Part shown: in pieces, positions 35,701-49,687 of the stretch
How positions within the stretch are numbered: position 1 is the first letter of the stretch
How the letters are laid out: each line of letters opens with the position of its first letter
IMG/VR virus record: IMGVR_UViG_3300025668_000010
Coordinates: 1 to 52,454 of that record
Reading direction: 5' to 3' (one strand)
Source: a virus
Length of the DNA stretch: 52,454 nt
The notes under the pieces: generated by a model
Databases searched by the model: none
What the model saw: the letters and a program-made list of their open reading frames with translations, nothing else
What the model was told of the DNA's origin: nothing
Made by a program: the position numbers and the translations under genes

Positions 35701-38700
35701 GACATTGCTACAGGAGCAACTATTAATGCTGCCAATTTAAGTGGCAGAACTGTCAACCTGCACAGACCATCTATTGTTAACTCTTCCTCGCATACGTGGG
35801 AATTTGCTGGTTCAGGAACTAACTACTTGGCACTGCCTGAAAACGGTGGAACTAAAATTGAAGCAAACGAGCAAGTATCTGAATTCTATGGACGTGTATA
35901 CGTTTCTGGAACTGACGAACTTGGTGACTTTAAGGTTGGAACATTTGCTAAGATTGAGAACAGAACTGGTGCTATCACCTTTACTGGAACGGTTACCATC
36001 TCGGAAGTTGAATTCTTGAAACTGAAAGGTGGCGACGTTGTTGTCACAGGTTTCGATGACTCTAACACACTTGGTGGTGCATCTTCTTCTGACAGTAAGA
36101 TCCCAACCCAGAAGGCAGTTAGAGACTTCATCACTAACAACCTTGGTGCATACATCCAGAAAGAATACTCTACCAACTCTGTTCCTAGAGCACTGGTCGA
36201 ACTAACTGACTCTGGTAAGATCTCCCTAGACCAAATTCCTGCTCTAAGACCATTTGAAGTCTTCACAGTTTCAAACCTATCTGAAAGACTCGACATTGAA
36301 GGAGCACTTGCTGGTGACATCGCAATTCAGCAAGATAATAATACATCATTCATTCTGAATAATGATAATGATAGTTTGTTCTTAGGATTTGCTGTAGATC
36401 CTACACTAACTTTCACTATCAATGATATTTTTGAGGGAAGTATTTCTCAGGGACAAATTCAAGCAACTGAATACAGACAAGGCGTCATGTATCAGATTGT
36501 TATTACTGATCCTGGTTCTGGATATACTATCCCCCCAACTCTTACCATTTCTGGCGGCAACCCAGGACTAGGTGCAATTGCTGCATCTGCAAGTTGCACT
36601 ATTGCAAACGGTCAAGTTGTTACAGTATCGATTGATGAGTTCAATGGATATGTTGGTGGTTTTGGTTATACAACACAACCAACAGTTACATTCACTGCTC
36701 CTCCTGCAGGCGGAACACAAACAACTGGTCTTGCATTAATCGAGAGCAGACTGTATGGTAATATTGTTAACGCTATTAAGATTACAGATACTGATCAAAT
36801 AGAATCTAGTGATCTTCCCGCAGAAACTGTTAACTTAACAAGAACTATCAACACTTCTGCTAGTGATAGTAACAACTGGGTATCACTATCTACCTCAACT
36901 GTTGATGCTAGAGACATCACAGGTGGTCCTATTGCTACGGACCTACTTGCTACCAACTCTACTGCTGCAAACTCCTACACATTCCTGAGAGGTGATCAAT
37001 CTTATGCTCTGGCAGTTCAATCGCTGAAGTCTCCAGAAGAAAGATACTTTGCAAAACTGACTGTTCCTGCTCAGTCTGGTTCAATCAACATGGTCTTTGC
37101 GACCAACCAAAATGCATTGCAGGGTCACCTAATTGTTGATAGTGTTCTTGGAATTCCATCAGAAACTATTATTCAATCTGTAACTACAGAAAGTGGTCTG
37201 ACTACGATTGGATTTGCTCAAGAAAAAGCACTAACCTCAACAATTCCAGCTGGAACAATTATTGAGTTTAGAAGAGCAACATCTCCAATCAGATTTGACT
37301 CTACATTTACCGAAGGTAACTTTATTGAAGAAATCATTATTGCCGATGGTGGTAATGGATTTACCAATGGAGAATATTTCAACCAGAATGTCACAGGTGG
37401 CAATGGTCAAGGATTAAAAGCAACTTATATTGTAGAAAACAATCAAGTTGTTGATGTTCTAATCACTAGTGGTGGTTCTAATTATACTCAAGACTTCTCT
37501 ACTAATCTTGCTCCAACTGTTATAGGAAGTGGAACTGGTCTTGATCTTAGATGTAAGAGATCTACTATTAATAGACAGTATGCAAACGTTACTGTTGATA
37601 TTGATAGAGTTCAAGAAGGTTCTGTTGACCCAGAATACGGAACAGTTGGTGTTGCTAGATTCGATAAGGCACAGTTCTTCATTAACGTTGGTGGAGAAGG
37701 TTCCATCAGACTGAAGACTGCTGCCAACAGTATTGACTCTGGACTAGATGCTGACTTGCTGGATGGCAAGCAAGGTTCTTTCTACCAGAACGCAGGTAGT
37801 TTGACTTCAGGAACACTTGATTCTGATAGATTAGCAGGAAGTTATAATATTAATATTACTGGTCAGTCGCAGAATACTATCAGACTGCTGAGTGGTATTA
37901 ACAACCCCTCCTCTAACCCATCTCCAAATACGTTCAGCACAGGTATTATTTCTGATACCAAGAATAACAACGCCGACCAATTAGTTGATGGCGGAACCAA
38001 GCATATGGTTCTGACCCTAAGATCTGGTCCTGACGCTACATATGGTGGCATTAGACAGTTGGCATTCACAGACAACGACAACATGTGGTTGCGTGGTTCT
38101 GGAACTGGTGTTGCTACATTTGGAACATGGGCTAAAATCTGGACATCAGAAAACGATGGTATTGATACAGGTCTTGATGCTGACCGCCTTGATAATAAGC
38201 AAGGAACATGGTATCAAAATGCTCTAAACATTAACTATGGAACAGTTTCTGCAAATAGATTACCTTCATTCCAAGCAGCAACTTCTTTCAGAAATACCCT
38301 GAAGGTTAAGTCTTTCAATGGTGATCCTAAGTATAACATTTACGTTTCAGGCAGAATTCTATCAACTCTACCTGCACCTAACCCATTCACTCCTGGTAAT
38401 GCGGTTAAAGTTTATAATGCCAACTCACAGGCAATTGGTGATCTTGAAATTGATAACTTGATTATCAACGATGATACTTCAGATAACTTTAACGATTATA
38501 CAATTATCCAAGCAAGACTAATCTCTGGTGGATTTACAGGTGCTCTGACAATTGGAACAGCAAGTAATAGAGTTGAGTTCCAAGACTTTACGATTGCAGA
38601 TGATAACAATATTGATATTGCTACTCTGGAATCCGATGGAGGAACTGCTAATCTACGTATGGGTAGAACAGATGGTAATGCATCTAACCCTGGTATTTAC

Positions 38701-40206
38701 TTCAGTTCTTCTCAACTTGCGGCAAATTACAACTCATCTATTGTTGCAACTGGAGGAACTGGAGTTGATGGTTCTGGAACACTAAATGTTCAAGTTGTTG
38801 ATTCTGACGGATTCACTGTCAAAGGAAACATTATTTGGAATGAAGGTAACGTTGCATTTAATAACACCAATATTGTTACTACTTACGATGCTCTTGGTCT
38901 TCCAACACTAAGAAGCGCAGTAATGCGTGATGGATCTGGTGACTTCTCTGCTAATCAAATTACAGTCAAAGCAGGATTTGATGGTATCGTTGGTGCTTCG
39001 TCACTGAACGTATTGAAATCTGGCGATACAATGACTGGCACCTTGGATATTACAGGTGCTGGTTCTGGTCTATCAGTTCAGGGAATCACTGGTTTGACTG
39101 GTGACGTTACCATGGATAACGATCTTACTATCGGAACTAATGTATTATTCGTAGATGAATCCGAAGAAGAAGTTGGTATCGGAACTCTTGTCCCGACAGA
39201 TAAACTATCTGTGGTTGGTGGTTCCTTCTCTATTGCTTCTGGAAGTGGTTCCAGTTCGATTGGAACTACTAATGGTTTCGGTATTGTATACGATACCACT
39301 AACGGTGTCGCTTATCAAATATCGAAGTCCACTAGTGGAAACACTTCAATCACTTGGGGAACTTCTGAGAGTGGAACTACTAGCAATAAGTTGACTCTTG
39401 ATCCTTCAGGTGATCTTTATCCTCTCCTGGCTACTCAAGATTTGGGTCTGAATGCTACCAATAACAGATGGAGAAATGCATACATCAAAGATGTATATGC
39501 TAAGTCTTCTCTGTCAATTCAAGATGCCACTTCTAATGCAGGAGCTCCTGCATACTTCCTAGGTTCCTCTGGTTTCCGTAACTTCCGAGTTGGTAGTCAA
39601 CTACTATCAGATGGCACATTTGAAATCACTGCAAGCACCGCAGATGGTGGTCAGGCATGGAACTCTACTCCTGCACTGTTCATTCAAGGTTCTACTAATA
39701 GAGTTGCTATAAACACAACTGAGTTTGGTGGAACTGATACATCAGAAACAACTCCTCAAGCTAGACTATATCAATTGAATATTGAAGGTGACCTGAACTT
39801 CAATGGTCAACTCTTCCAAAACAACGAAGAGTTTGTTACTTCAAGATGGACACTGAATAAGACTACTAATAACATCTGGAGACTGTCTAAAGTTGGTGTT
39901 GGCAAATCTGACCCAGTTTATACCTTAGAGACTGCTCCTCTGGTGGTAGATGGATCTCAAGTCAATGACGGTTCAGTTAATGTTGGAGGTTCTACTTTCA
40001 GTTCTGGTGTAAACACTAGTGTTGTGTATGCAAACTCAGATCCTCAGTATATTGATACTTATGGAGTCTTTAAAACTAACAGAAATATAGTCAACGAAAA
40101 TGTTTCAATTCCAGCAGCAACAAACGCTATGAGTGCGGGACCATTGACTATAAATAATGGTATTACCATTACAATCCCTGTAGGATCTAGTTGGAGCGTT
40201 GTGTAA
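29725..40206 (+). CDS. Giant tail-fibre-like structural protein (3493 residues)
   Basis: The longest gene in the window. Order: two GxGY modules (about 62-135); first half of a pectin-lyase-like beta-helix (IYVSSQIGSDLNDGRSAVNPVRTVKRA to GDNLRLVIIRPNNPGKHIF, about 298-390); a helical module split in two; four tandem beta repeats (about 826-1170), with a fifth diverged copy at about 1573-1670; a second, intact helical module (about 1460-1560); second half of the beta-helix (SPYTQNASVISFLGGGGA ... GGYCSITNSATNFG, about 1784-1900); PTQKAVRDFI; more GxGY modules (about 2255-2330, 2538-2600); LDADLLDGKQGSFYQ and a pyocin-knob-like FGTWAKIWTSENDG (about 2798-2811); C-terminal INNGITITIPVGSSWSVV. 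These are fibre-type domains, so a long tail fibre or whisker role is likely. A CTAAATA promoter precedes it. Confidence 0.82.
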   Translation: MSFNINSDKEFIKASKPQIIGTAEFAIKSGVGVDEKEVIRALLDSEEKLPRVGINRTGQRVNNINVLTGGSGYTIRPTVTVSPPPAGVEGAIQALASSFIFNGRVSSIAINNPGKGYSEPPTVTITGGNGAGATAEAFLDTVDFELDINGAIRTSTSIISDTARILNLDIDNFVTPDANFRGPNLKNYMNNTGTIWSANVIVQKDSYRYFGSNVYQAINAGQTGDFAPEHLDGIVLNGEVQLKHIGFRVVDATEFGYNETGEAGVFPRSITPLLGDRSDKIATTEYVLNLATNDVGGRIYVSSQIGSDLNDGRSAVNPVRTVKRAAQLAWETVGVKETLIVSGGDYVEDNPISLPPDASVVGDNLRLVIIRPNNPGKHIFKFGDKNYVTGVTYRDKVDANGDSVATWDFAMVFDDKQRILIDKEANGDFGVNFPTGHQVFGPSKFQINFQNNSGLAQLSSGLEAVGVNTGARGDISNVRFDDLTGNNAYRNGKLDIVITSGSFLSGEGFKYLINGTQGVSLDTSSGTTRANALDNTIVMSTNPVLSNIVPGGYVYLDGTTNALVGNGFYEVLQIDDDDAPAYYVTLAPILGSIGWREEISGNIDIYAASVNEGAFDSTSINSIRAEGEVVYTTEDFDTPLPLSRIDFTLQGTFTDGFQNEIFGDAEDLGGIVFYTNALVGRENTHDFKEGEEILIEGLPTVSPNLSFLNGYQRIYKVIEDPDGRARRFVIPKKVDASFGLNSNNDFDPGQFATVKSATRSVTLSLLNSPNTFPLATPVDRRFQDAVTFIRNNRDFISDEVVGRINDEFKKSYYSVYNIAGTASSQFTPTDVSYNPATGDSVFTVANHGLGLGDGVRIDDDSVVFTCAMDGNLTEHSAPQSHHYSSGKTLPITASTTNTFTVNVGASGPDQQYTPSNATYNPATGDMVLTIGSHGLSIGEGVVIDDNSLSFTCQMDGFDTAKTYPRPGIDPFAGRSIPIKDTSDTTITLYVGVSGANQYFTPSNATYDPVTGDMTVTVGQHGLGVGRSVVLQDESFTFTCALDGNQSNHQYPRPGQDPFAGKSIAITAVGATQHTATDVDYDAVTGDTEITIPSHGFTTGDYIKISDGSLVFTCDLDGNTVQKSYPRASYDYPSNRWLSITVIDSEKFRVNIGASSYEGTHTFVSASSNGIDRQDGTFTINVGTSSDTSAHTFVSASVGAIKHEPQSIHSFQGSTANAIKHLPQSAHTFVRAATGAIKVGGSTFDIYLGTTTDTHTYVSGGTVEYGGSTYSISNFAYDNIVTGVATVTVANPINNITDDATVKLADILLSCANGQKVYPSFSIPVDDTQCKQDVAHFLNALTRDLEFGSNHNMIEAAKKYIVGAKIDYVENEIIQTVRAIEYTTQLAIFAMCNWRIGNRTPGEDVYTPVYSSIPRYFDDTVITTTATDGGTIACSNVESAIRTLSFLYTDVLTNNTSGTNLDAAYLIARNRDLIADLALSDTETLYPSLNLSDTHQRKCRRDISYILGGLIRDLSFGGNSGIVTNAEFYYSGAALTGIDATQLEETRYAYSRVAEYAKSAMRNWSSSTISEVVEVTPTTATYTPASGVVVIQIPTPSTIPDLNDRIAFKEGALTFSCSGGTHASPTPTDRNYGNSLAILNINNIGGGILEITVNVGDPGTGNVPHTFDSALTDGTIIIYNPIDTSNSDIPKTEDWNILLYPTTPLCANVATAIDTSFALLDGILEYADDDQSLTAIQPGETAIDTGTLYDTENIITYPDSYIYDADNQRVAVRGDYDDYPIIEASPYTQNASVISFLGGGGAEVDGNKVKQPNCPFPGLELDGTASFPNQGKSMVAAAFTIVSFGGTGYRVVNDGYTQLVSVFVIFCADGVLAESGGYCSITNSATNFGQFALRAIGYREEPYIFDAGYFSSGSYIRAIVTNVSQTPTGRTILTIENLGREPLEHYILKIDGLRNVDEDTEFFVEEITQVGAGPPFTATCIFDDGSGSPVEMVDIATGATINAANLSGRTVNLHRPSIVNSSSHTWEFAGSGTNYLALPENGGTKIEANEQVSEFYGRVYVSGTDELGDFKVGTFAKIENRTGAITFTGTVTISEVEFLKLKGGDVVVTGFDDSNTLGGASSSDSKIPTQKAVRDFITNNLGAYIQKEYSTNSVPRALVELTDSGKISLDQIPALRPFEVFTVSNLSERLDIEGALAGDIAIQQDNNTSFILNNDNDSLFLGFAVDPTLTFTINDIFEGSISQGQIQATEYRQGVMYQIVITDPGSGYTIPPTLTISGGNPGLGAIAASASCTIANGQVVTVSIDEFNGYVGGFGYTTQPTVTFTAPPAGGTQTTGLALIESRLYGNIVNAIKITDTDQIESSDLPAETVNLTRTINTSASDSNNWVSLSTSTVDARDITGGPIATDLLATNSTAANSYTFLRGDQSYALAVQSLKSPEERYFAKLTVPAQSGSINMVFATNQNALQGHLIVDSVLGIPSETIIQSVTTESGLTTIGFAQEKALTSTIPAGTIIEFRRATSPIRFDSTFTEGNFIEEIIIADGGNGFTNGEYFNQNVTGGNGQGLKATYIVENNQVVDVLITSGGSNYTQDFSTNLAPTVIGSGTGLDLRCKRSTINRQYANVTVDIDRVQEGSVDPEYGTVGVARFDKAQFFINVGGEGSIRLKTAANSIDSGLDADLLDGKQGSFYQNAGSLTSGTLDSDRLAGSYNINITGQSQNTIRLLSGINNPSSNPSPNTFSTGIISDTKNNNADQLVDGGTKHMVLTLRSGPDATYGGIRQLAFTDNDNMWLRGSGTGVATFGTWAKIWTSENDGIDTGLDADRLDNKQGTWYQNALNINYGTVSANRLPSFQAATSFRNTLKVKSFNGDPKYNIYVSGRILSTLPAPNPFTPGNAVKVYNANSQAIGDLEIDNLIINDDTSDNFNDYTIIQARLISGGFTGALTIGTASNRVEFQDFTIADDNNIDIATLESDGGTANLRMGRTDGNASNPGIYFSSSQLAANYNSSIVATGGTGVDGSGTLNVQVVDSDGFTVKGNIIWNEGNVAFNNTNIVTTYDALGLPTLRSAVMRDGSGDFSANQITVKAGFDGIVGASSLNVLKSGDTMTGTLDITGAGSGLSVQGITGLTGDVTMDNDLTIGTNVLFVDESEEEVGIGTLVPTDKLSVVGGSFSIASGSGSSSIGTTNGFGIVYDTTNGVAYQISKSTSGNTSITWGTSESGTTSNKLTLDPSGDLYPLLATQDLGLNATNNRWRNAYIKDVYAKSSLSIQDATSNAGAPAYFLGSSGFRNFRVGSQLLSDGTFEITASTADGGQAWNSTPALFIQGSTNRVAINTTEFGGTDTSETTPQARLYQLNIEGDLNFNGQLFQNNEEFVTSRWTLNKTTNNIWRLSKVGVGKSDPVYTLETAPLVVDGSQVNDGSVNVGGSTFSSGVNTSVVYANSDPQYIDTYGVFKTNRNIVNENVSIPAATNAMSAGPLTINNGITITIPVGSSWSVV
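32200..33230 (+). repeat. Four tandem beta repeats in the giant fibre protein
   Basis: Starts at about 32200, 32458, 32719 and 32941, with unit length 222-261 bases (74-87 residues). Each follows (F/Y)TP(S/T)(N/D)xxYxPxTGDMxxTxxxHGLxxGxxVxxxDxSxxFTCxxDGN, then (in copies 2 and 3) YPRPGxDPFAGxSI and an xxxVGxSGxxQ end. Each copy keeps one cysteine in FTC. A fifth diverged copy lies at about 34435-34740 (FSCSGGTHASP...). Short HTFVSA(S/T)xGAIKH segments follow at 33190-33440. Confidence 0.8.
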
Positions 40207-40212
40207 GAAACT

Positions 40213-40962
40213 ATGAGTAGTATATTTGTAAACAACTTAAAATCTTCTACTGGAAATACAATCCTAATTCCAGCAGGACATTCTCTTTCTTTAGATGGAT
40301 CTATTGTCAGTAATAATTCTTTGCTTCCAAGTCCTTCGGGAAATGCAGGTAAACTTGTCGCTAGCAATGGAAGTAATCTAAACTACGGAGAAACTGGAGC
40401 AAAAGGAATCTTGGTTTTTACGGGACCAGGAACTTATACTCCCAGTTCTGGAACTAGACTAGTTCATGTAAGACTTGTCGGTGCTGGGGGCGGTGCATCT
40501 GGTCACGGAGAGTCTGGAGGATCTGGAGGTTATGCCGAAGGATTTTTTGACATGAGTGGGGTAACTAGTGTATCAATCACCATAGGAACAGGTGGTAGTG
40601 CTACATATTACTCTGGAGGAGCGGGGACTGGACAGTCAACATCCTTTGGAAGTTTCATGACCGCCACAGGGGGTCGCGGAGCAAATAGTAGTCATCAACA
40701 TTGCGGTGGACTACCTGGACTAGGATCAGGTGGTCAGATTAATACGTATGGTGGTGGTGGAACTGGTCATGGATATAACGGCAGGGGTGGTAATAACTTC
40801 TTTGGTGGTCCTGGAGCAACTGGACACCCTCAAGGTGGTTCATTTGCTAACAATCATCAATCGCATACTGTTCCAGGAACAGGTGGTGCTAATGGATGGA
40901 CAAGATCCTATCCAGGTAATGTAGGAACAAGTGGCATGGTAGTTATTTGGGAGTATGCATAA
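40213..40962 (+). CDS. Glycine-rich adhesin-like protein, copy 1
   Basis: A 249-residue protein. The N-terminal 90 residues form a leader shared with copies 2 and 3 (VNNLKSSTGNTILIPAGHSLSLDG, then LVFTGPGTYTPSSG). The C-terminal part is strongly glycine-rich, with GAGGGASGHGESGGSGGYAE, QHCGGLPGLGSGG, YGGGGTGHG and GATGHPQGGSF. Glycine-rich repeats of this kind build polyglycine-type sandwiches in adhesins such as gp38 of T2/S16-like phages, so a fibre-tip receptor-binding role is likely, though inferred. It starts 6 bases after the giant fibre gene and ends directly against copy 2, so all are in one operon. It is a paralogue of the next two genes. Confidence 0.75.
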   Translation: MSSIFVNNLKSSTGNTILIPAGHSLSLDGSIVSNNSLLPSPSGNAGKLVASNGSNLNYGETGAKGILVFTGPGTYTPSSGTRLVHVRLVGAGGGASGHGESGGSGGYAEGFFDMSGVTSVSITIGTGGSATYYSGGAGTGQSTSFGSFMTATGGRGANSSHQHCGGLPGLGSGGQINTYGGGGTGHGYNGRGGNNFFGGPGATGHPQGGSFANNHQSHTVPGTGGANGWTRSYPGNVGTSGMVVIWEYA

Positions 40963-41721
40963 ATGTCTATTTTAAGAGTAAACGAAATTAGATCTCAATC
41001 TGGTAATACAGTTGTTGTTCCTTCTGGTTATCAATTGAGTCTTGATGGAACACTTGTTAACGCAACTTCGTTGCCACCCGATCCATCTGGACAGGGTGGG
41101 AAGTTTGTTCAGTCAACAGGAAGTGGTGTTGTCTGGACTAATGTTGGTCCAGATGCTATTAGAGTATTTAATGCAAGCGGAACTTGGATTAAACCTGCAG
41201 GAATTACAAAAATTCTAGTAAAGATTGTTGGTGGCGGAGGTTCTGGTTCTGGAGTTGGAGAAACTGGGGCAGCAGGTGGATATTCAGAAAAGATTATTGA
41301 CGTTACTAGCGTCAGTAGCGTTTCTGTTACTGTAGGAACAGGAAATACAAACCCAACATATTACTCTAACAGAGCAGGTGCTGGAACAGCAACATCCTTT
41401 GGATCTTACATGACTGCCACAGGAGGAAATGGGGGAAACCAATCACACCAACATTGTGGAGGACTTCCTGGTGTAGGCAGTGGAGGAGATTTCAACATCT
41501 ATGGAGGTGGTGGATGCGGACATATGTATTGGTCTGGACCTCCTGGTGGTAGTTCTTACTGGGGAGGTGCTGGAGCAACTGGACACCCTCAAGGAGGAAA
41601 TTATGCTCATCAACATAGTTCACATGCTCCTCCAGGTTGTGGAGGAAGTGCTGGATACCATACATCACGTTTAGGTGCCAATGGTAGAGATGGTATGGTA
41701 GTAGTATACGAGTTTAAATAA
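40963..41721 (+). CDS. Glycine-rich adhesin-like protein, copy 2
   Basis: A 252-residue paralogue of the gene before it, starting immediately after its stop. Shared features: VNEIRSQSGNTVVVPSGYQLSLDG, a strand FNASGTWIKPAGITKILV that matches copy 3 closely, then GGGGSGSGVGETGAAGGYSE, QHCGGLPGVGSGG, YGGGGCGHMYW and GATGHPQGGNYAHQHSSH. It has additional Cys and His residues in the glycine-rich part (GGGGCGH, PPGCGG) compared with copy 1. The probable role is fibre-tip adhesion, as for copy 1. The DNA around GATGHPQGG is almost unchanged between copies 1 and 2, which suggests recent duplication or exchange. Confidence 0.75.
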   Translation: MSILRVNEIRSQSGNTVVVPSGYQLSLDGTLVNATSLPPDPSGQGGKFVQSTGSGVVWTNVGPDAIRVFNASGTWIKPAGITKILVKIVGGGGSGSGVGETGAAGGYSEKIIDVTSVSSVSVTVGTGNTNPTYYSNRAGAGTATSFGSYMTATGGNGGNQSHQHCGGLPGVGSGGDFNIYGGGGCGHMYWSGPPGGSSYWGGAGATGHPQGGNYAHQHSSHAPPGCGGSAGYHTSRLGANGRDGMVVVYEFK

Positions 41722-41722
41722 A

Positions 41723-42490
41723 ATGTCAACCCTTAATGTAAACCGAATCGAATCAGCAAGTGGAACTGCCATTTTGGTTCCTGCTGGATATAACTTGGAA
41801 GTTGATGGTGCTATCCTCAATAAGGATACTCTACCTCCAAGTCCAGCTGGGCAAGATGGTAAATTTTTGTATACTCCTGACGGATCATCTTTGTCGTGGT
41901 CTGTTGCAGGACCAAAAAGTATTCAGCAATTTACTGCAAATGGAACTTGGACTAAACCAGCAGGAATTTCAAAAATTCTAGTTATGATTCAAGGTGGCGG
42001 TGGTGCTGCTTCTGGTCATGCTGAATCTGGTGGTGCTGGAGGATATTCAGAAAAACTAATCGATGTCAGTAGTGTCTCTTCTGTTCAAGTAACTGTTGGA
42101 ACAGGTTCTACATCTTGGACATATTATTCTGGAGCAGCAGGTGGTGGAAACACTTCTTCTTTTGGAAGTTACATGTCTGCTACAGGAGGAAGAGGTGCCA
42201 ATACTACCAATCAACATTGTGGTGGACTTCCTGGTGTAGGATCTGGGGGAGACATCAATCTTTATGGTGGTGGTGGAACTGGACACATGAGTTGGGCGTG
42301 TGCTAAAGGAGGTAGTTCTTTCTTTGGTGGTGCTGGAGTCTCTGGTCACCCTCAAGGCGGTAACTTTATTAATAACAGTCACGCTCAAGCAGCATATGGT
42401 TGCGGAGGAACTGGTGGTTATACATCTTATTCAAACGTTGTTGGTGCCCAAGGAAGAAATGGCGTCGTAATTGTCTATGAATATGTTTAA
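41723..42490 (+). CDS. Glycine-rich adhesin-like protein, copy 3
   Basis: A 255-residue paralogue, one base after copy 2. It carries VNRIESASGTAILVPAGYNLEVDG, FTANGTWTKPAGISKILV, GGGGAASGHAESGGAGGYSE, QHCGGLPGVGSGGDINLYGGGGTGH and GVSGHPQGGNF. It differs from the others mainly in short segments between the glycine motifs (for example SWACAKGGSSFF and INNSHAQAAYGCGG), exactly where a receptor-binding loop would vary. The three copies may give alternative tips or together form one structure. It is the last gene of the fibre operon; a late promoter box overlaps its stop codon. Confidence 0.75.
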   Translation: MSTLNVNRIESASGTAILVPAGYNLEVDGAILNKDTLPPSPAGQDGKFLYTPDGSSLSWSVAGPKSIQQFTANGTWTKPAGISKILVMIQGGGGAASGHAESGGAGGYSEKLIDVSSVSSVQVTVGTGSTSWTYYSGAAGGGNTSSFGSYMSATGGRGANTTNQHCGGLPGVGSGGDINLYGGGGTGHMSWACAKGGSSFFGGAGVSGHPQGGNFINNSHAQAAYGCGGTGGYTSYSNVVGAQGRNGVVIVYEYV

Positions 42491-42496
42491 TAAATA
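42489..42496 (+). promoter_or_regulatory. Late promoter-like box AATAAATA
   Basis: AATAAATA overlaps the stop codon of the third glycine-rich gene and lies 26 bases before the ATG at 42523. It is one base off TATAAATA. It could drive the fibre-assembly-like gene and the enzyme cassette behind it. Confidence 0.5.
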
Positions 42497-42522: not shown

Positions 42523-42969
42523 ATGAAACATGTTCTTTTAGATAATAGAGGATTGGTATCTGATGTAGTAGATCCTGGAAATGAATTTCCAGTATACAAT
42601 GGACCAGATTCTCCAATCAGATGGGTCACCTGTGATATAGATTCTGTTGACAGCACTTGGATGATGATTGATGGTCAGTGGGTTGCTCCCAATCAAAGAT
42701 ATGAAAATGGACAAAACTTGAAGAGACAAATCTCATATGGAGATGTTGGAGAGCAACTCGATATGATGTATAAAGATATGGTAGACGGTGGAACAAGATG
42801 GAAAGATCATATTGCTAATGTCAAGTCCACTGTCGAATCCGAAAGTGCTTTTGAAGCAAATCCTGCAAACAAAGTAGGCAAGGTAGAAGTAAGACTAGCA
42901 GACGAATCGAATCCATCTTGGAATAAACTGCCCGAAGGTTCAAGAATTATTGAAGTAACTGAAAACTGA
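42523..42969 (+). CDS. Tail-fibre-assembly / XkdW-like protein (putative)
   Basis: A 148-residue protein. The N-terminal half has short strands (MKHVLLDNRGLVSDVVDPGNEF) and a small WMMIDGQWVAPNQ motif. The second half has YGDVGEQLDMMYKDMVDGGTRWKDHIANVKS (about 73-103), a pattern (YGDxxEQLDMxYxDxxxG...W..HI..VK) common in small proteins coded next to phage fibre genes and in XkdW-like proteins. It directly follows the fibre and adhesin genes, where assembly chaperones often lie. It is transcribed from its own late-like box and ends 13 bases before the halogenase gene. Confidence 0.65.
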   Translation: MKHVLLDNRGLVSDVVDPGNEFPVYNGPDSPIRWVTCDIDSVDSTWMMIDGQWVAPNQRYENGQNLKRQISYGDVGEQLDMMYKDMVDGGTRWKDHIANVKSTVESESAFEANPANKVGKVEVRLADESNPSWNKLPEGSRIIEVTEN

Positions 42970-42982
42970 TTATTACTTTGTT

Positions 42983-44560
42983 ATGAAAATTAAATCGGTA
43001 TGCATTGTTGGAGGTGGATCCTCTGGGTGGATGACTGCTGCGCTACTCTGCAAGAATCTACCTGACTTAAAAATTATTGTTGTTGAACCAAAAAATATTC
43101 CTACAGTAGGAGTAGGAGAGTCTACCCTTGGACACATCAATCGATATCTAGATTGTATTGGTCTCCTTGGGAAGGATGAAGAATGGATGCCTCATTGCAA
43201 TGCAACTTATAAAGTTTCTATTCAATTCACAGACTTCAAGAATAAAGGTCATCGTTTCCAATATCCTTTTGGACAAGTAGATTTTACAAATAAAGATCTT
43301 GAAGACTGGTATTACTTAAACCATCTCAAAGAAGATCTAGAATTTTCAAATTTTTATAATCCGATTACATATCTTGCCGATCATAATAAAATGGTTGGCG
43401 ATAATAAGTATATCAGAAATTTTAATTTCAATCTTGACACCGCATATCACTTTGATGCTACTCAATTTGGGGAGTATTTAAAGAACAATATTTGTATCCC
43501 TAACGGGGTCAAAGTTGTGAGAGATTCTGTATCTAATATTTTTAAAAAAACAGATGGCAGTATTGACTTCCTTCAATTAGAACACTCTCCTTTGTTAAAA
43601 ATTGAAGCAGATCTTTTTGTAGACTGCACTGGATTCAAATCCATGCTCTTGGAAGAAGAGATGGGATCTGAGTTCATCAGTTTCAATGATGTTCTTTTGA
43701 ATGATACTGCTATTGCTACTAGAATTCCATTTGTAGATAAAGAGAAAGAACTTCATAATGTAACAGACTGCCATGCCATGCAGTATGGATGGGTTTGGAA
43801 TATTCCTTTATGGAATAGAATTGGAACTGGATACTGCTATTCAAGTCAGTTCACTAGAGATGATTTAGCAGAAGATGAATTTAGAAGACACTTAGCAAAA
43901 ACAGATGCTAAGAGAGCAGAAGAAGCAGAGTTCTTCAAGATTGATATTAAACACGGCAAGAGAAAAAGAGCATGGGTTAAGAATGTAGTTGGTATTGGAT
44001 TGTCATATGGATTCCTCGAACCATTAGAATCAACTGGATTACTCACTACACATGAAAATGCTTTAAGACTTCTGTCTACTCTAGAAAGAAGAAATGGTAT
44101 TGTAAACAAAGTTGACGTAGATGGATTCAACATTTCTGTAGACAATGATATTGAGTCTATGAAAAACTTTGTTGCTATGCACTATGTTCTTTCAGAAAGA
44201 GAAGACTCTTCTTATTGGAAATATATTGTTAATGAAGTTGCTCCAGCAAAAGAAGAAGAGCTTTATGATATGATTGTAAGATCACCAAGACTATATCAAG
44301 AGTTTACTTTTGCTAGTAATGGTCCTGGATCTTGGGGAGCTTTAGATGGTCTTCTATACATTGCTGCTGGTATGGGTCACACACCTCTAGGAAAAACAGA
44401 GTGTATGTATAGACTTCGAGATGGTAGACATAAAATAAAAGAAAATTTAGAGTCTGCTTATAATGAACATTTAAAATATGAAAAGAAGTTGCTAGAAAAA
44501 CTTCCAACAATGAAATCGACGTTTGAATTCTTGAGAGATAATGTTTACAAATCTGTTTAA
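42983..44560 (+). CDS. Flavin-dependent halogenase (tryptophan-halogenase family)
   Basis: A 525-residue enzyme with all landmarks of the family: FAD-binding GGGSSGW (10-16), GVGEST (43-48), the catalytic lysine in CNATYK (K77; PrnA K79), the halogenase motif W270-V-W272-N-I-P275 followed by RIGTGYCYS, and FLEPLESTG with E346, matching PrnA E346. These enzymes use FADH2, O2 and halide to form hypohalous acid, which halogenates a substrate through the lysine. FADH2 must come from a reductase, and none is coded nearby. A cyanophage member, VirX1 of Syn10, has been shown to be an active halogenase that prefers iodide. Here it heads a cassette of oxygenase genes; the next gene overlaps its last 20 bases. 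Substrate unknown. Confidence 0.95.
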   Translation: MKIKSVCIVGGGSSGWMTAALLCKNLPDLKIIVVEPKNIPTVGVGESTLGHINRYLDCIGLLGKDEEWMPHCNATYKVSIQFTDFKNKGHRFQYPFGQVDFTNKDLEDWYYLNHLKEDLEFSNFYNPITYLADHNKMVGDNKYIRNFNFNLDTAYHFDATQFGEYLKNNICIPNGVKVVRDSVSNIFKKTDGSIDFLQLEHSPLLKIEADLFVDCTGFKSMLLEEEMGSEFISFNDVLLNDTAIATRIPFVDKEKELHNVTDCHAMQYGWVWNIPLWNRIGTGYCYSSQFTRDDLAEDEFRRHLAKTDAKRAEEAEFFKIDIKHGKRKRAWVKNVVGIGLSYGFLEPLESTGLLTTHENALRLLSTLERRNGIVNKVDVDGFNISVDNDIESMKNFVAMHYVLSEREDSSYWKYIVNEVAPAKEEELYDMIVRSPRLYQEFTFASNGPGSWGALDGLLYIAAGMGHTPLGKTECMYRLRDGRHKIKENLESAYNEHLKYEKKLLEKLPTMKSTFEFLRDNVYKSV

Positions 44561-45353
44561 AAAAGAAAAAAATTATATAAGATTTCATTCTTTAGTTCCT
44601 GGTGTTAATACATTATATCCAATCATTCATTCTAATAAATTGAATAGAAATTGGATAGAAGAAGAGAAGCAAGAATACCGAAGAAAAAAATCTAAGTGTC
44701 CGTTTGGGTTCATGAATCCAGATCAGATGACTGTAGATCCTATTCATAGTATTAATAAATGTCCAGCAATTCATGGTATTATGAATAATGGATTTGTTAT
44801 TCGTGCGGCGTCAGATATCTATGTTCATACTAATGGTGATAAGCATACTATAAACTTCAAAGCAGTTGATTTAGTTCCACATGTTCCACATGTAAATCTT
44901 CATGGTGATGATGTATCTAAATGGTTGCTAGATTCATCTAAAGATGTAACTTTGGATCAAGTCTTGAAAATTAATACTCCTTGGAGAGTTACTACAAACA
45001 ATAACGATTTAGTATTTCTAGTAGTTAAAACTCCATTTGTGAATGAGACTCGATTTAGTCCTGTCATGGGAGTGATGGATCCAAAAACTGCATTTGAGAT
45101 TAACGTTCAATTATTCTGGCATGTTTTGGAAGGAGATGAATTGATTAAAGCAGGAACGCCTCTATGCACATACATACCAATTTCTAGAAGTCTTCTTCAC
45201 CAATCAAATTTTATATGTGAAGATGCAAATGATACTGATTGGAAAGTAGAAAATGAAATGAATTATACTTATGAGCATGTTGACTCTATCAGAAATACGT
45301 TACAAGAAAGAGTTTCACGAGTTCTCAAAGTTTTAAAAAAATATTATGATTGA
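44541..45353 (+). CDS. Unknown protein of the halogenase/oxygenase cassette
   Basis: A 270-residue protein. Its ATG lies inside the last codons of the halogenase, with GAGAG just upstream, so the two are probably translationally coupled. Visible features: RFHSLVPGVNTLYP (18-31), a Cys-containing region with KSKCPFGFMNPDQ and NKCPAIHGIMNNGFVIRAASDIYV, a strand FSPVMGVMDPKTAFEINVQLFWHVLEGD, and AGTPLCTYIPIS near the C terminus. The CPAI...ASDI and F.hvl.gd.li.AGTPL..yIPI pattern recalls DUF6065-like phage and bacterial proteins, but the match is weak. No His-x-Asp iron motif is obvious, so it may not be an oxygenase. It may act on, or present, the substrate of the cassette. Confidence 0.7.
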   Translation: MFTNLFKKEKNYIRFHSLVPGVNTLYPIIHSNKLNRNWIEEEKQEYRRKKSKCPFGFMNPDQMTVDPIHSINKCPAIHGIMNNGFVIRAASDIYVHTNGDKHTINFKAVDLVPHVPHVNLHGDDVSKWLLDSSKDVTLDQVLKINTPWRVTTNNNDLVFLVVKTPFVNETRFSPVMGVMDPKTAFEINVQLFWHVLEGDELIKAGTPLCTYIPISRSLLHQSNFICEDANDTDWKVENEMNYTYEHVDSIRNTLQERVSRVLKVLKKYYD

Positions 45354-45942
45354 TTTGTTTCCTATAAAAATCGAAAGAGGATCTGTCATTCCAACAGAGA
45401 TACAAAGACAAAATACTCAAGAAGGATTAGAATCTTTATTTTCTCAATGTGAACCAAACATATGGACTGGAGAGTCTGGATTATCTACAGGACAATTAAA
45501 TTTAAAATTATATGCTGACATAGATTTGTCCTGGTTGTTTGAATCTTTATACCCATCAGTTGTTAACTACTGGACTAGTTTAAATTATCAACCAATGAAT
45601 ATTGGAGTAACTTCTTGCTGGGCAAACTTACACAGAAAAGGAGACACCACTAGAGAACATTCTCATAGTGATGGTTTTCATGGGTTCAATGTTATCTCTG
45701 GTGTATACTATTTTAAAAAACCAGATGGTATAGGTAATATTAAATTTTGCAATCCATTAGATAATATTTTAAGGATGACACCTTATAAAGATATGCAAGG
45801 TATTGATACTATTGCAACTGAAGTCGAGACTAATCAATACGAATATATTTTATTTCCATCTTGGTTGCGTCATCGTGTTGATAAACATCCAGTAGATGAA
45901 GAACGTATTGCAATTTCATTTAATTATGTTGGTATGCTATGA
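45346..45942 (+). CDS. Predicted 2-oxoglutarate/Fe(II) oxygenase (Oxy_5-like) A
   Basis: A 198-residue enzyme with the pattern of the 2OG-FeII_Oxy_5 group: SCWANLHRKGDTTREHSHSDGF with the His-x-His pair H105/H107, SGVYYFKKPDGIGNIKF, the distal histidine in FPSWLRHRVDKHP (H176), and EERIAISFN with the arginine that binds 2-oxoglutarate. These enzymes couple 2-oxoglutarate decarboxylation to hydroxylation or related oxidation. Similar proteins are common in T4-like cyanophages and have been proposed as prolyl hydroxylases; the substrate here is unknown. It overlaps the gene before it by 8 bases and the gene after it by 4 bases (ATGA). The closest relative in the window is the gene at 46676. Confidence 0.85.
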   Translation: MIDLFPIKIERGSVIPTEIQRQNTQEGLESLFSQCEPNIWTGESGLSTGQLNLKLYADIDLSWLFESLYPSVVNYWTSLNYQPMNIGVTSCWANLHRKGDTTREHSHSDGFHGFNVISGVYYFKKPDGIGNIKFCNPLDNILRMTPYKDMQGIDTIATEVETNQYEYILFPSWLRHRVDKHPVDEERIAISFNYVGML

Positions 45943-46676
45943 ATTTTTATAGAATGAATCCTAGTTCAGTTTATTTTGATTCTGAAATAAAACTAAAACC
46001 ATTGGAGTATGAAAGAGTCCACGTAGCAGATAATGTATACTATTGGAATATTTACGATCCATTCTTAGATGATGGTATAGAAAAATTCAAATCTTTTGTA
46101 TCATCAAATCCAATTTGGAGAATGAATAATGAATATGAATTGGAAGATACAAATCCATTCGCTACTATACATCTGCCAACCTTTGCTACCAGTAAAATTT
46201 TTGATTTACTAAAACAATTTTGTCATAAAGAATTAAACATTTTATTGCCATTGAATGTTAATGATTGGGGAAATCTTTTCTTCAAGAATGAATGCAGACC
46301 TATTAAGAGATGGAGACTTCCTCACATGGATTATGTGGGGGGCATTGCATCTAATCTCTGGATGACAGATCATAAAAATTCTGGAACCATATTATACCAC
46401 TACACAGGAAAGACATATGGTGTTTCGTATGACTTTCAAGTAGATGACTCTCACCCTTTGTATTCTGAATGGCATGAGTTTGGATCCAGAAACAGAGATT
46501 CCTCTTGGAAAAATTTTACAGACGAAGAAGCAGAGTATTGGGGGTTCAAACCTCTTGGTTTGGTGCCATCTAAATATAATTGTATGACTTGCTATCTACC
46601 AAACGTTTCCCACACTCCTTTCATAGAAGATGATGTTGAGTTTCGTTGGTCGCATACCTTCTGTGCTTTTTATTAA
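45939..46676 (+). CDS. Predicted oxygenase of DUF6445-like type
   Basis: A 245-residue protein with LPHMDYVGGIASNLWMTDHKNSGTILYHY (H129-x-D131) and a distal SHTPF histidine (H225) followed by EFRWSHTFCAFY, where an Arg could bind 2-oxoglutarate. The long N-terminal part (about 1-110) is unlike the other oxygenases here. The H-x-D...H set and the LW..G..LYHY strand suit the cupin-like double-stranded beta helix of Fe(II) oxygenases and resemble DUF6445 proteins. The assignment rests on motifs only. It overlaps its neighbours by 4 bases (ATGA) on the left and one base (TAATG) on the right. Confidence 0.65.
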   Translation: MNFYRMNPSSVYFDSEIKLKPLEYERVHVADNVYYWNIYDPFLDDGIEKFKSFVSSNPIWRMNNEYELEDTNPFATIHLPTFATSKIFDLLKQFCHKELNILLPLNVNDWGNLFFKNECRPIKRWRLPHMDYVGGIASNLWMTDHKNSGTILYHYTGKTYGVSYDFQVDDSHPLYSEWHEFGSRNRDSSWKNFTDEEAEYWGFKPLGLVPSKYNCMTCYLPNVSHTPFIEDDVEFRWSHTFCAFY

Positions 46677-47254
46677 TGAATTTAGAATACATTTTTCCTA
46701 CACCAATATGGTCAGTAGATTTTAATTTTGATCTGACTAAAATGAAAGAGTTTGTTCTTGAGGAAAGAGAAAAAAATAACTCAAGACAAATATCAAATAT
46801 TGGCGGATGGCAATCAAATGATTTTTATCCATCAGATTTTTCTAATACAGAATTTAAAAATTTTTTTTCTAGAATACAAAGTGCGCTGCAGCAATGTTTC
46901 TATGACTATGGGACCGAGCAAGTTCCCGTAGTTGATAACATTTGGTTTAATATTAATCGAAAGGGAAATTATAATGTTTCCCATTTTCATGCTGGTCCAA
47001 TACTATCTGCATGTTTCTATATTAAATCTCCAGAAGATTCTGGTTCTATAGTATTTGAAAGATCAACTCATGAAGATTATATTATTTCATCTAAGATAGG
47101 ATTATCTACAAGTAGACTAGCTGCATCTAAATGGAGATATCAAGCAATCGAGAATAGACTTCTACTTTTTCCAGCATGGTTATCGCATAAAGTAGAAGAG
47201 AATAATTCTAATGAAGAAAGAATTTCCATGGCATTCAATATTAAGGCAAAGTGA
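46676..47254 (+). CDS. Predicted 2-oxoglutarate/Fe(II) oxygenase (Oxy_5-like) B
   Basis: 192 residues from ATG 46676, which overlaps the preceding stop (TAATG). An upstream in-frame start at 46646 is rejected because it lies inside the previous gene and adds a hydrophobic extension. Oxy_5-like features: the start YIFPTPIW, typical of the group; IWFNINRKGNYNVSHFHAGP with H103-x-H105; ACFYIKSPEDSGSIVFE; the distal LLFPAWLSHKVEEN (H171); and EERISMAFN with the Arg. It is a paralogue of the gene at 45346, with the same iron ligand layout but low overall identity. The role is probably hydroxylation of an unknown substrate. Confidence 0.85.
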   Translation: MNLEYIFPTPIWSVDFNFDLTKMKEFVLEEREKNNSRQISNIGGWQSNDFYPSDFSNTEFKNFFSRIQSALQQCFYDYGTEQVPVVDNIWFNINRKGNYNVSHFHAGPILSACFYIKSPEDSGSIVFERSTHEDYIISSKIGLSTSRLAASKWRYQAIENRLLLFPAWLSHKVEENNSNEERISMAFNIKAK

Positions 47255-47844
47255 TGTTAAAAGTTATTGACAATTTTCTACCAAAAAATTTACAAGAAGA
47301 ATTAAAAACTACTTGTCTAGGAACTGCGTTTCCTTGGTATTATATTCCAGATGTGACCAGAAGTATTTTCATTGATGGTGAATATGCTCAACCAGGATTT
47401 CATCATACGCCATTTGCTGAGTATACTCCACAGTCTCATTATTTTGATTACTTTAAATTTTTATCATACTTTATCGAAGATGAAATTGGATACTCCGATC
47501 CACTACATTTGTTTAGAATAAGAGCAGGATTAAATGTAGCTACTGCATATAATAATATAGAGTTTGATCAAGAGTATAACTTTCCCCATATAGATCATAA
47601 TAATGAGTTTGTAAAATGTAAAACATTTACTTGTCTTTACTACGTTACAGATTCTGATGGAGATACATTTGTATTTGATCAGACCCAAGAATCAAAAGAG
47701 TATACTGTAAAGAAAAGAGTTACACCAAAACAAGGAAGACTTTTTATATTTGATGGAGAACAATATCATGCGAGTTCTTCCCCAATTAAATCTAGTTCTA
47801 GAGTTGTTCTAACATTAAATTATCATGCAGAGAGAGTTATTTAA
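47254..47844 (+). CDS. Predicted 2-oxoglutarate/Fe(II) oxygenase (P4H-like)
   Basis: A 196-residue enzyme. The ATG at 47254 is preferred over GTG 47251 because it gives the usual TGATG junction with the preceding stop. Motifs: LKVIDNFLPKNLQEEL start, typical of small P4H-like oxygenases; the iron pair HID (H112, D114) in FPHIDHNNEF; LYYVTDSDGDTFVF; the distal histidine H172 in FDGEQYHASSSP; and R183 in SSRVVLTLNYH. This is the classic HxD...H...R arrangement. It overlaps the next gene by 20 bases, so they are translationally coupled. Prolyl or other amino acid hydroxylation is possible; the substrate is not visible from the sequence. Confidence 0.85.
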   Translation: MLKVIDNFLPKNLQEELKTTCLGTAFPWYYIPDVTRSIFIDGEYAQPGFHHTPFAEYTPQSHYFDYFKFLSYFIEDEIGYSDPLHLFRIRAGLNVATAYNNIEFDQEYNFPHIDHNNEFVKCKTFTCLYYVTDSDGDTFVFDQTQESKEYTVKKRVTPKQGRLFIFDGEQYHASSSPIKSSSRVVLTLNYHAERVI

Positions 47845-48526
47845 TTTAAAAAAAATTATTAAAGACAGTGATAAAGTAGTTGTATTTAATAAATTATTTT
47901 CAGATCCTAATTTTATTTCTTGGCAAGATGTTGAGTATTCTATTAATAGTGGCAAGTATCACGTAGAAATTTTAGACAACAAAAACAAAGTTAGTGTTTC
48001 TGAGTCCAGATATTTCTGGCATAGTCATCCAAATCAAGATAAAGAATTACTGTTCCATCTAATCAATGAGGGGAAAACTTTTGTAATACATCAGTTCTCT
48101 TTGTTCAATGAAAAGATTGCAGGACTAGCAGCAGACATCGAGCATATGTTTCCTGTTCAGTGTGATGTTCATGTCTATGGTGGTATAGGACATAGCGGAT
48201 CTTTCAATCCTCATGTAGATATTCCATCAAATTTTATCATTCAACTTGATGGAGTGACGAAGTGGAAGGTGTATAAAAACTATGCAACAGATCTGTTATT
48301 GCAAGAAGAAGTAAATACTTACTTTGATCCAGAAAATTTAGAAGTAGATCATGAGATTGACTTAGAACCAGGAGATATGATATACATTCCTGCTAGAAGA
48401 TTCCATGCTGCTTTCCCAGAAGGAAACAGACTTTCTTTGAGTATACCATGTAGATCTATAAAATATAATACAGATCAGTCTATTCATTTAAATAGAAACT
48501 TTTATAAAATTGACCATGGAAATTAA
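47825..48526 (+). CDS. Predicted JmjC/cupin-4-like oxygenase
   Basis: A 233-residue protein with a JmjC/cupin_4 (ribosomal-oxygenase-like) pattern: GHSGSFNPHVDIPSNFIIQLDGVTKWKVY with H130-x-D132, then LEPGDMIYIPARRFHAAFPEGNRLSLSIPC with distal H194. The LDG..KW.VY and GD.iYIP...FH..F segments are family hallmarks. Bacterial and mitochondrial relatives hydroxylate residues of ribosomal proteins (Arg or His), so a protein substrate is a reasonable thought but unproven. The start lies 20 bases inside the preceding gene, and the end overlaps the next gene by 11 bases. Confidence 0.8.
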   Translation: MQRELFNLKKIIKDSDKVVVFNKLFSDPNFISWQDVEYSINSGKYHVEILDNKNKVSVSESRYFWHSHPNQDKELLFHLINEGKTFVIHQFSLFNEKIAGLAADIEHMFPVQCDVHVYGGIGHSGSFNPHVDIPSNFIIQLDGVTKWKVYKNYATDLLLQEEVNTYFDPENLEVDHEIDLEPGDMIYIPARRFHAAFPEGNRLSLSIPCRSIKYNTDQSIHLNRNFYKIDHGN

Positions 48527-49118
48527 ACCAATACTCATCAAAGATTTTATATCTAAAGATGTTATTAGATTACTTGATACAGAGTTTTCTATGATGAGAG
48601 ATTGTATGAAAACTCTAGGTTCTCCAGAGGGTTTCAATGATCCATCTACAGATAATACTTTCTCTTGGTATTCCCCAATCTGTTTTGAAGCATTGTCTGT
48701 ATTCATTCAAAAAGATATAGAAAAAATTCTTGGTAGACCTATCATATCAACATACTCTTATGGTAGAATCTACATGAACAATAGCGAATTAAAGAGACAC
48801 ACAGATCGACTAAGTTCTGAAATTACTGTCAGTTGTTGTTTGAGAAAAGATTCATCTTGGCCACTATGTTTTGAGTATGAAAATACTACCATGGAATTTG
48901 ATTTAGAACCAGGAGATGCTGTTATAGGTTCTGGATCTAAGACTCCTCACTGGAGAAATAAATACAATGGTAACGAACATGTTCAAGCATTTGTTCAATA
49001 TGTTTTCGCGGATGGTGAAAGATCTCATTTAGCGTATGATACTAGACCCTGTTTAGCATCACCATATGAGTTAACTGACATCTCTGTCAAAGAAGAAATG
49101 AAAAACTATCAATCCTGA
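48516..49118 (+). CDS. Predicted 2-oxoglutarate/Fe(II) oxygenase C (prolyl-hydroxylase-like)
   Basis: 200 residues from ATG 48516; the TTG at 48510 that opens the frame is not needed. Motifs: PILIKDFISKDVIRLL start; YGRIYMNNSELKRHTDRLSSEITVSC with H95-x-D97; LEPGDAVIGSGSKTPHWRNKYNG with distal H145; HVQAFVQYVFADG as the last strand. The HxD...H layout and the ELxRHTDR wording are typical of small phage 2OG oxygenases. An Arg that would bind 2-oxoglutarate is not obvious in the usual place, although HVQAFVQY occupies that strand. It is the last enzyme of the cassette and is followed after 7 bases by an unrelated coiled-coil gene. Confidence 0.8.
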   Translation: MEIKPILIKDFISKDVIRLLDTEFSMMRDCMKTLGSPEGFNDPSTDNTFSWYSPICFEALSVFIQKDIEKILGRPIISTYSYGRIYMNNSELKRHTDRLSSEITVSCCLRKDSSWPLCFEYENTTMEFDLEPGDAVIGSGSKTPHWRNKYNGNEHVQAFVQYVFADGERSHLAYDTRPCLASPYELTDISVKEEMKNYQS

Positions 49119-49125
49119 GGTGACT

Positions 49126-49425
49126 ATGGAATCCCCACAAAAATACGAATATCCTGACCCTACTCCACCAGTAGAAGAGAAAAAAGACCTCCTTACTTTT
49201 GAGGATCTTTGGGAAAATTTCTGTCAACAATTGAATGTTGCTAGAGAAAATTTAAAGCAAAAAGAATCACAAATTGATGATGAAATCTCTTCTTTAACCA
49301 GAATTGATTTGACAGAATATAATGAGTTAAAGGTTGTGGTTACTAAATTGGAAGCAGCAGTAGAAACTTTGGATCTTGTTAGAACTAAAGTTTGTGGAGA
49401 AAAATCTTTAATTGAGATCATATAA
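49126..49425 (+). CDS. 99-residue coiled-coil protein of unknown function
   Basis: The start ATG 49126 has GAGG at 49117-49120. A GTG at 49120 is also in frame but would place the start within that site. The N terminus is proline-rich (YPDPTPPVEEKKD), and the rest is a long charged helix (about 28-99), probably a coiled coil: FEDLWENFCQQLNVARENLKQKESQIDDEISSL, then NELKVVVTKLEAAVETLDLVRTKV. No enzyme motifs. It follows the last oxygenase by 7 bases and precedes a late promoter box that overlaps its stop. It may be a structural or assembly factor, but nothing specific is seen. Confidence 0.65.
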   Translation: MESPQKYEYPDPTPPVEEKKDLLTFEDLWENFCQQLNVARENLKQKESQIDDEISSLTRIDLTEYNELKVVVTKLEAAVETLDLVRTKVCGEKSLIEII

Positions 49426-49428: not shown

Positions 49429-49457
49429 TTATTATCGTTATTCTATAAAATACTACA

Positions 49458-49650: not shown

Positions 49651-49687
49651 AAGTCCCTGCCTGATAAATACAGGTAGGGACTTTTTG
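49651..49687 (+). terminator. Intrinsic terminator with a late promoter box in its loop
   Basis: AAGTCCCTGCCTG (49651-49663) pairs with CAGGTAGGGACTT (49671-49683): 13 pairs, one of them G-T, across a 7-base loop ATAAATA. The T run is TTTTT at 49682-49686. This is a strong rho-independent terminator for the upstream small gene. Confidence 0.85.
49663..49670 (+). promoter_or_regulatory. Late promoter box GATAAATA in the terminator loop, upstream of gp13
   Basis: GATAAATA occupies the loop (ATAAATA) and the last stem base of the terminator, and lies 28 bases before the gp13 ATG at 49699. It could restart late transcription for gp13-gp16 exactly where the previous transcript ends. An AGGTG at about 49694 may serve as ribosome binding site. 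Confidence 0.6.

Follow-up and report, generated by a model that had tools for sequence, protein, structure and literature searches.

Why would a cyanophage carry a flavin-dependent halogenase and six non-heme iron oxygenases, packed end to end between its fibre and neck genes? This arrangement occurs in the 52,454-base IMG/VR virus record IMGVR_UViG_3300025668_000010 (hereafter the window, meaning the whole stretch of DNA analysed), which belongs to a T4-like cyanophage near Cyanophage S-RIM44 and Syn1 (neck-gene DNA identity 93–95%). An initial annotation had described a gapless halogenase and oxygenase cassette at 42983–49118 and had proposed, as one of two hypotheses, that it modifies Trp, Pro or other residues of fibre proteins. 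Our analysis favours, with a probability of roughly two in three, a tailoring operon expressed late in infection, whose products would halogenate and hydroxylate Gly-rich adhesin tips encoded immediately upstream; we infer its chemistry, substrate, target residue, timing and benefit.

All eight open reading frames (ORFs) of the cassette, coding for the halogenase, a partner protein termed O3 and the oxygenases ox1–ox6, were confirmed on the + strand as a head-to-tail series. Successive junctions from halogenase to ox6 overlapped by 20, 8, 4, 31, 4, 20 and 17 nucleotides (nt), and the next ORF followed after a 1-nt gap. The initial count of six Fe(II)-oxygenase genes also held, with a conserved HxD...H or HxH...H motif in each. 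The functional and evolutionary unit is larger than these eight ORFs: its first genes, from 40213 on, encode three Gly-rich adhesins and a protein presumed to be a chaperone. Between the 3493-amino-acid (aa) fibre gene and gp13, the + strand carries three Gly_rich_2 genes, phrog_1787, the halogenase, O3, six oxygenases and p101 (Table 1). This gene order is not due to chance, since ~80 viral contigs shared it, as did 10 named phages. Across module loci the median gap between enzyme genes was −8 nt. Cassette genes were under purifying selection, with ratios of non-synonymous to synonymous substitution (dN/dS) of ~0.12–0.34 in comparison to locus L031, at which dS was near saturation.

The adhesins and the enzymes were linked across phages. 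Among 50,697 phage records, a tblastn search with adhesin 2 matched 20, each of which was also among the records possessing a halogenase of the type of VirX1 from cyanophage Syn10. A scan of IMG/VR by adhesin alignment alone, with search patterns taken from adhesins that were halogenase-linked and with output covering the best 80 of 419 relatives, recovered 79 loci; a halogenase was present in 72 of the 72 that extended at least 1.2 kb beyond the last adhesin, at least three oxygenases in 55 of the 55 that extended at least 6 kb, and O3 in 43 of these 55. In Vellamovirus-like phages the module was placed before gp13, and in Syn10, S-CREM1, P-TIM40, S-WAM1, S-SZBM1 and P-RSM6 it lay downstream of an unrelated fibre region. 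Its internal order also varied, with the halogenase lying between adhesins and chaperone at two loci (L011, L020) and on the strand opposite to the adhesins at a third (L019).

Comparison of the window to S-RIM44 showed 93.5% identity up to 40161, mostly 65–70% identity where alignable between 40.46 and 48.4 kb, and 94.6% identity from 49457. Because identity drops after 40161 and returns at 49457, the replaced block reaches from the adhesins to p101. Syn1 was 91% identical to the window from 49444 onward and had a different fibre and one oxygenase at this site, and S-H9-2 also held other content there, so that the gp13-proximal site is variable. Adhesin distances correlated with those of the halogenase (rho 0.83), ox1 (0.81) and O3 (0.72), in comparison to 0.22 for the adjacent gp13, as calculated from 55 non-independent pairs of 11 loci. 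These breakpoints bear on which virion component would be the substrate. The enzymes neighbour tail genes, and oxygenase clusters elsewhere adjoin a short tail fibre gene (Sf-CH3) or a non-Gly-rich fibre (Syn1), which could make the long fibre at 29725–40206 or several baseplate fibres the target in place of the Gly-rich tips; we consider this unlikely, as the long fibre stayed at 93.5% identity to S-RIM44 whereas adhesins and enzymes fell to ~65–70%, and they were thus not exchanged together.

Two further groups of Gly_rich_2 adhesins served as controls. S-RIM12-type loci had one or few oxygenases, with a halogenase in 1 of 21 IMG/VR loci (L131), and S-SM1-type loci (L133–L176) had several downstream oxygenases, often including one ox6-like, while their close members were without a halogenase. 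Adhesin–halogenase pairs were also found among distant Gly_rich_2 matches (L181, L182, L184 and, inverted, L201) and in Sf-CH11 (L008). The linkage of oxygenases to adhesins is thus a general one, to which the halogenase comes in addition, with a single adhesin subfamily and in a few independent instances. The halogenases adjoining distinct Gly-rich adhesins in L181, L182, L184, L201 and L131 were more divergent, which points to pairings that arose independently more than once. Of 146 oxygenase hits in 12 genomes, 54 lay in adhesin-cassette intervals in comparison to 7.4 expected, a figure that measures clustering and is not an independent test, since the intervals were defined from the cassettes. 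JmjC_2 genes occurred in 8 of 14 records, with 9 of 11 hits inside cassettes. Sf-CH3 had a second group of four 2-oxoglutarate (2OG) oxygenases after a short tail fibre gene and around a tail assembly chaperone gene (L292, PV340851.1 48602–53296), which suggests that linkage of oxygenases to fibre genes is common to cyanophages in general.

Table 1. Positions of the adhesin and enzyme module and of flanking features in the window.
Feature	Position	Strand	Remarks
Fibre protein, 3493 aa	29725..40206	+	Upstream of module, outside exchanged block; 93.5% nt identity to S-RIM44 up to 40161
Gly-rich tip adhesin 1	40213..40962	+	PF21722 Gly_rich_2, 26.1 bits (cut-off 24.3)
Gly-rich tip adhesin 2	40963..41721	+	PF21722, 39.1 bits; numbering reference for E100, Y134, N159, H164, H187
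Gly-rich tip adhesin 3	41723..42490	+	PF21722, 33.2 bits
ATAAATA, T4-type late-promoter-like heptamer	42490..42496	+	26 nt ahead of chaperone start
Presumed fibre-assembly chaperone, 148 aa, phrog_1787	42523..42969	+	Role suggested by position
VirX1-type flavin-dependent halogenase	42983..44560	+	VirX1 6qgm, E 1e-149, full length
O3, phrog_7084, conserved partner	44541..45353	+	dUTPase-like beta-clip model; not an oxygenase
ox1, 2OG-FeII_Oxy_5 / TIGR02466	45346..45942	+	H105xH107...H176...R187
ox2, Fe(II) oxygenase, phrog_1644 / DUF6445-like	45939..46676	+	H129xD131...H225...R236
ox3, 2OG-FeII_Oxy_5 / TIGR02466	46646..47254	+	H113xH115...H181...R192
ox4, 2OG-FeII_Oxy_3	47251..47844	+	H113xD115...H173...R184
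ox5, JmjC_2 oxygenase, 233 aa, kin of protein histidyl/arginyl hydroxylases	47825..48526	+	H130xD132...H194
ox6, phrog_2954, HxD...H protein	48510..49118	+	H97xD99...H147
p101, small conserved protein	49120..49425	+	Last gene of exchanged block; same-place homologues in relatives
Intrinsic-terminator-like hairpin ahead of gp13	49651..49683	+	13 pairs, 7 G-C, T-rich tail; loop holds ATAAATA at 49664

The very long fibre upstream of the module and a second one in the window (ORF 4355–14341, 3328 aa) were mutually related, with 34% local identity.

The halogenase passed the Pfam Trp_halogenase cut-off (344 bits, cut-off 21) and aligned end to end to VirX1 (PDB 6QGM), and its residues G10/G12/G15 (GxGxxG), K77, W270-x-W272-x-x-P275 and E346 were kept in at least 97% of 96 halogenase homologues. 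The sequence of the Syn10 protein at L005:8001–9593 agreed with that of VirX1 over the stretches displayed for both. The neighbourhood of VirX1, as considered in Syn9 and Syn10, resembles the window module; in Syn10 it has Gly-rich adhesins, a chaperone, O3 and about nine oxygenases, but contains two halogenases in comparison to one. In the papers covered, VirX1 is an in vitro iodinating enzyme to which no native substrate is assigned; that substrate becomes testable because the Syn10 enzyme sits inside a putative adhesin-tailoring module. Tandem halogenases of two different branches were present in many modules (L002, L005, L006, L014, L022 and others), sharing ~34–39% and 41–59% identity with that of the window, from which the first of the two was lost or in which it never occurred. 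The halogenases of S-B64 (L023), S-MbCM25 (L024) and Syn1 (prnA, L027) were located among photosynthesis, transaldolase or replication genes and may have a different role.

Published readings take such enzymes in another direction, namely that they produce or modify a small metabolite of the host or the phage, such as an antibiotic-like halo-indole, or draw down 2OG to drive NtcA, the proximity of fibre genes being incidental. In these reports, prnA is assigned to antibiotic protection and the 2OG oxygenases to 2OG drawdown or DNA repair (PMC9964418, PMC3037559). Aromatic halogenation has been assayed for the homologue VirX1, which accepts many small aromatics (PMC8407142), as a metabolite role would allow; that its active site is large and open and that it takes phenols (PMC8407142) speaks for tip tailoring. 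We nevertheless regard this role as improbable for the module, given the obligate tie of the enzymes to one adhesin family at differing genome positions and their block exchange and co-divergence with the adhesin. Family scans of the cassette genes identified the halogenase as the sole gene of pyrrolnitrin (prnABCD) type, and one scan around the 80 best bacterial halogenase relatives showed no comparable O3 or adhesin set nearby; a bacterial origin of the cassette was rejected on the latter result. S-CREM1, which carries the same module as the window, and S-SCSM1 were reported as oxygenase-rich, with the same gene families described as auxiliary metabolic genes (PMC9964418, PMC9602691), and the passages covered propose neither an adhesin link nor virion modification. 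More widely, none of the published readings, be it host metabolism, an antibiotic, 2OG drawdown or DNA repair, proposes fibre modification in the passages covered, and the linkage stays unexplained by them. Tip tailoring accounts better than these metabolic readings for why enzymes and adhesins are linked and exchanged as a block, for the homology to protein hydroxylases and for the natural role of VirX1.

The homology to protein hydroxylases concerns ox5, which passed the JmjC_2 cut-off (66 bits, cut-off 22) and had NO66 (E 1.5e-6), MINA53 (6.5e-6) and an L16 arginine hydroxylase (1.7e-4) as homologues. The JmjC_2 ribosomal oxygenases NO66, MINA53 and YcfD share its HxD...H site and act on proteins by hydroxylating His or Arg side chains, although ox5 is far shorter than the NO66 chains (454–489 aa). 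Pfam cut-offs were also passed by ox1 and ox3 (2OG-FeII_Oxy_5) and by ox4 (2OG-FeII_Oxy_3), while ox2 and ox6 remained under every cut-off, ox6 having only weak matches to 2OG-FeII_Oxy_3, WelO5 and TauD; the metal motifs were nonetheless kept in 38 homologues of ox2 and 28 of ox6. The metal site is HxD...H in ox2, ox4, ox5 and ox6 and HxH...H in ox1 and ox3, and a downstream Arg for 2OG was kept in ox1–ox4, while in ox6 the metal site alone is clear. PDB sequence searches with ox2, ox4 and ox6 returned nothing significant, the 'ferrochelatase' match of ox6 having an E-value of 0.15, and PHROG appears to mislabel ox2 as 'minor coat protein', ox4 as 'DNA endonuclease V' and ox6 as 'ferrochelatase'. 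The same three names are given to oxygenases in public annotations of S-RIM44, Sf-CH3 and HTVC008M as well as in PHROG, and such mislabelling hides oxygenase clusters from surveys.

The protein-directed relatives of ox5 also bear on the possibility that the enzymes remodel whichever host surface or receptor the adhesin is matched to, for example blocking superinfection or freeing progeny from debris. Such a role would in principle likewise tie enzymes to adhesin type. It appears quite improbable, since the ox5 relatives work on proteins and family scans of the cassette, in which secretion signals were not tested, identified no transporter or glycan enzyme. A host metabolite or surface molecule, which the initial annotation had offered as its second hypothesis, has accordingly become the less likely target.

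Structure models, built from window and IMG/VR sequences, were used to examine the remaining members of the module. The AlphaFold2 (AF2) model of O3 (predicted local distance difference test score, pLDDT, 86) matched dUTPases in Foldseek (E 3e-4, TMq ~0.3) with similarity over the core only, and its PDB sequence search was without a significant match. O3, initially described as a protein of unknown type outside the oxygenases, is indeed not an oxygenase, and the model adds a predicted dUTPase-like beta-clip fold; DUF6065 was rejected as its identity, as Pfam PF19541 matched nothing in five O3-bearing phages. The phrog_1787 gene followed the adhesins in nearly all loci, and its product, for which no Pfam or PDB sequence match was obtained, is presumed from this position to be a fibre-assembly chaperone.

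The AF2 model of adhesin 2 (pLDDT 90) had the fibre of cyanophage Pam3 as its best PDB match (7ypx; Foldseek E 1e-7, TM 0.54), placing the adhesins in the same fold family, with a sequence match too weak for detection in PDB. The Gly-rich domain of Pam3 is the distal, proposed receptor-binding tip and requires a phage chaperone for folding (PMC9608196). The Pam3 gp24 fibre and gp25 chaperone (7YPX; PMC9608196) thus resemble the window in pairing a Gly-rich fibre of the same fold with a chaperone gene, the chaperone role in the window being presumed. Salmonella phage S16 gp38 is a Gly-rich tip of the same kind as Pam3 gp24, and the three tandem adhesin copies of the window are unlike both systems.

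Residues E100, Y134, F146, N159 and H187 were invariant among 184 halogenase-linked adhesins. No Trp was invariant in this set, and Trp was therefore dropped as the halogenation site; the idea first proposed, of a unit dedicated to fibre proteins, is strongly supported by linkage, block exchange and co-divergence, with its target moved from Trp or Pro to the three Gly_rich_2 tips. Judged from conservation, candidate sites on the tips are Y134 and the invariant His, Asn and Glu residues. Position 134 was Asn in 12 halogenase-free relatives and Tyr in L131, the sole halogenase-linked member of that group, a match that is suggestive only. The predicted tryptic peptide with Y134 of the window adhesin is IIDVTSVSSVSVTVGTGNTNPTYYSNR. 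The virion proteome of S-SZBM1 lists the neighbouring fibre proteins 51–54, while the Gly-rich SSZBM1_48 and 49 and the cassette enzymes 42–46 are unlisted (PMC9146016). The cassette enzymes thus appear not to be virion parts. SSZBM1_48 and 49 each have 8–9 suitable tryptic peptides by computation, and that they are unlisted fits modification and also low copy number.

The heptamer ATAAATA, which resembles the T4 late-promoter sequence TATAAAT, was located upstream of 52 of 167 adhesins but of only 4 of 315 oxygenases; for the chaperone this held at 27 of 59 distinct loci and for gp13 in 12 of 17 cases. The window itself had nine copies in comparison to 15.6 expected (below chance), all nine on the + strand and including those at 40150, 42490, 49422 and 49664; because the heptamer is not in excess here, the timing argument rests on its position across loci. 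This position, along with the strong terminator-like hairpin at 49651–49683, makes late co-expression of the cassette with structural genes likely. In the mechanism we propose, one operon would supply, late in infection, the Gly-rich tips and presumed chaperone as well as the halogenase, a beta-clip partner and as many as ten or so Fe(II) oxygenases, and tip side chains would be modified in the infected cell ahead of assembly. The halogenase would most likely target the invariant Tyr134, while hydroxylation by the JmjC enzyme and the remaining oxygenases may fall on His, Asn, Pro or further residues. Once modified, the tip would be incorporated into the tail and bind the host, and the possible benefit is a receptor-binding surface that is chemically more diverse, richer in hydrogen bonds or harder.

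Several observations weigh against this mechanism. No modification has been observed, and the adhesins unlisted in S-SZBM1 virions could reflect low copy or absence from virions. The match between Y134 and the halogenase represents one independent switch, L131 differs at the remaining sites, and the conserved Tyr may be structural. O3 is left without an explained role, and the halogenases of S-B64, S-MbCM25 and Syn1 are unlinked to adhesins. Same-family oxygenases are also found elsewhere in these genomes, for which reason the strict claim that they occur only near adhesins was rejected; the scattering in related phages that the initial annotation had named as a refutation was seen for other 2OG oxygenases and not for the halogenase, O3 or JmjC genes. 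The gp13-proximal site does vary in content (S-H9-2, Syn1), as it would if unrelated cargo without joint function simply gathered at a hyperplastic site beside fibre genes. This is nevertheless very improbable, since the same partners recur at several unrelated sites with 72 of 72 linkage, conserved active sites and purifying selection.

On balance, we lean towards the wider proposition that marine phages halogenate and hydroxylate their own receptor-binding tips by means of a dedicated operon that is inherited and traded together with the adhesin as a whole cassette, that recognition thereby extends beyond the 20 encoded side chains, and that this is the native role of VirX1-type enzymes. Phage enzymes are known to decorate their own virions with sugars. 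The module shares with virion glycosylation the decoration of own particles and differs in its chemistry, halogenation and hydroxylation, and in the genetic tie of the enzymes to the receptor-binding tip; it is thus a variant of phage self-modification and not categorically new. If tip tailoring is true, the module would supply catalysts for halogenating and hydroxylating proteins that are already folded, and tips produced recombinantly without modification may be unable to bind. Of the dozens of cyanophage 2OG oxygenases now classed as auxiliary metabolic genes, many would in that case be virion-maturation genes, and phage host range would depend on post-translational chemistry that is not visible in gene sequence.

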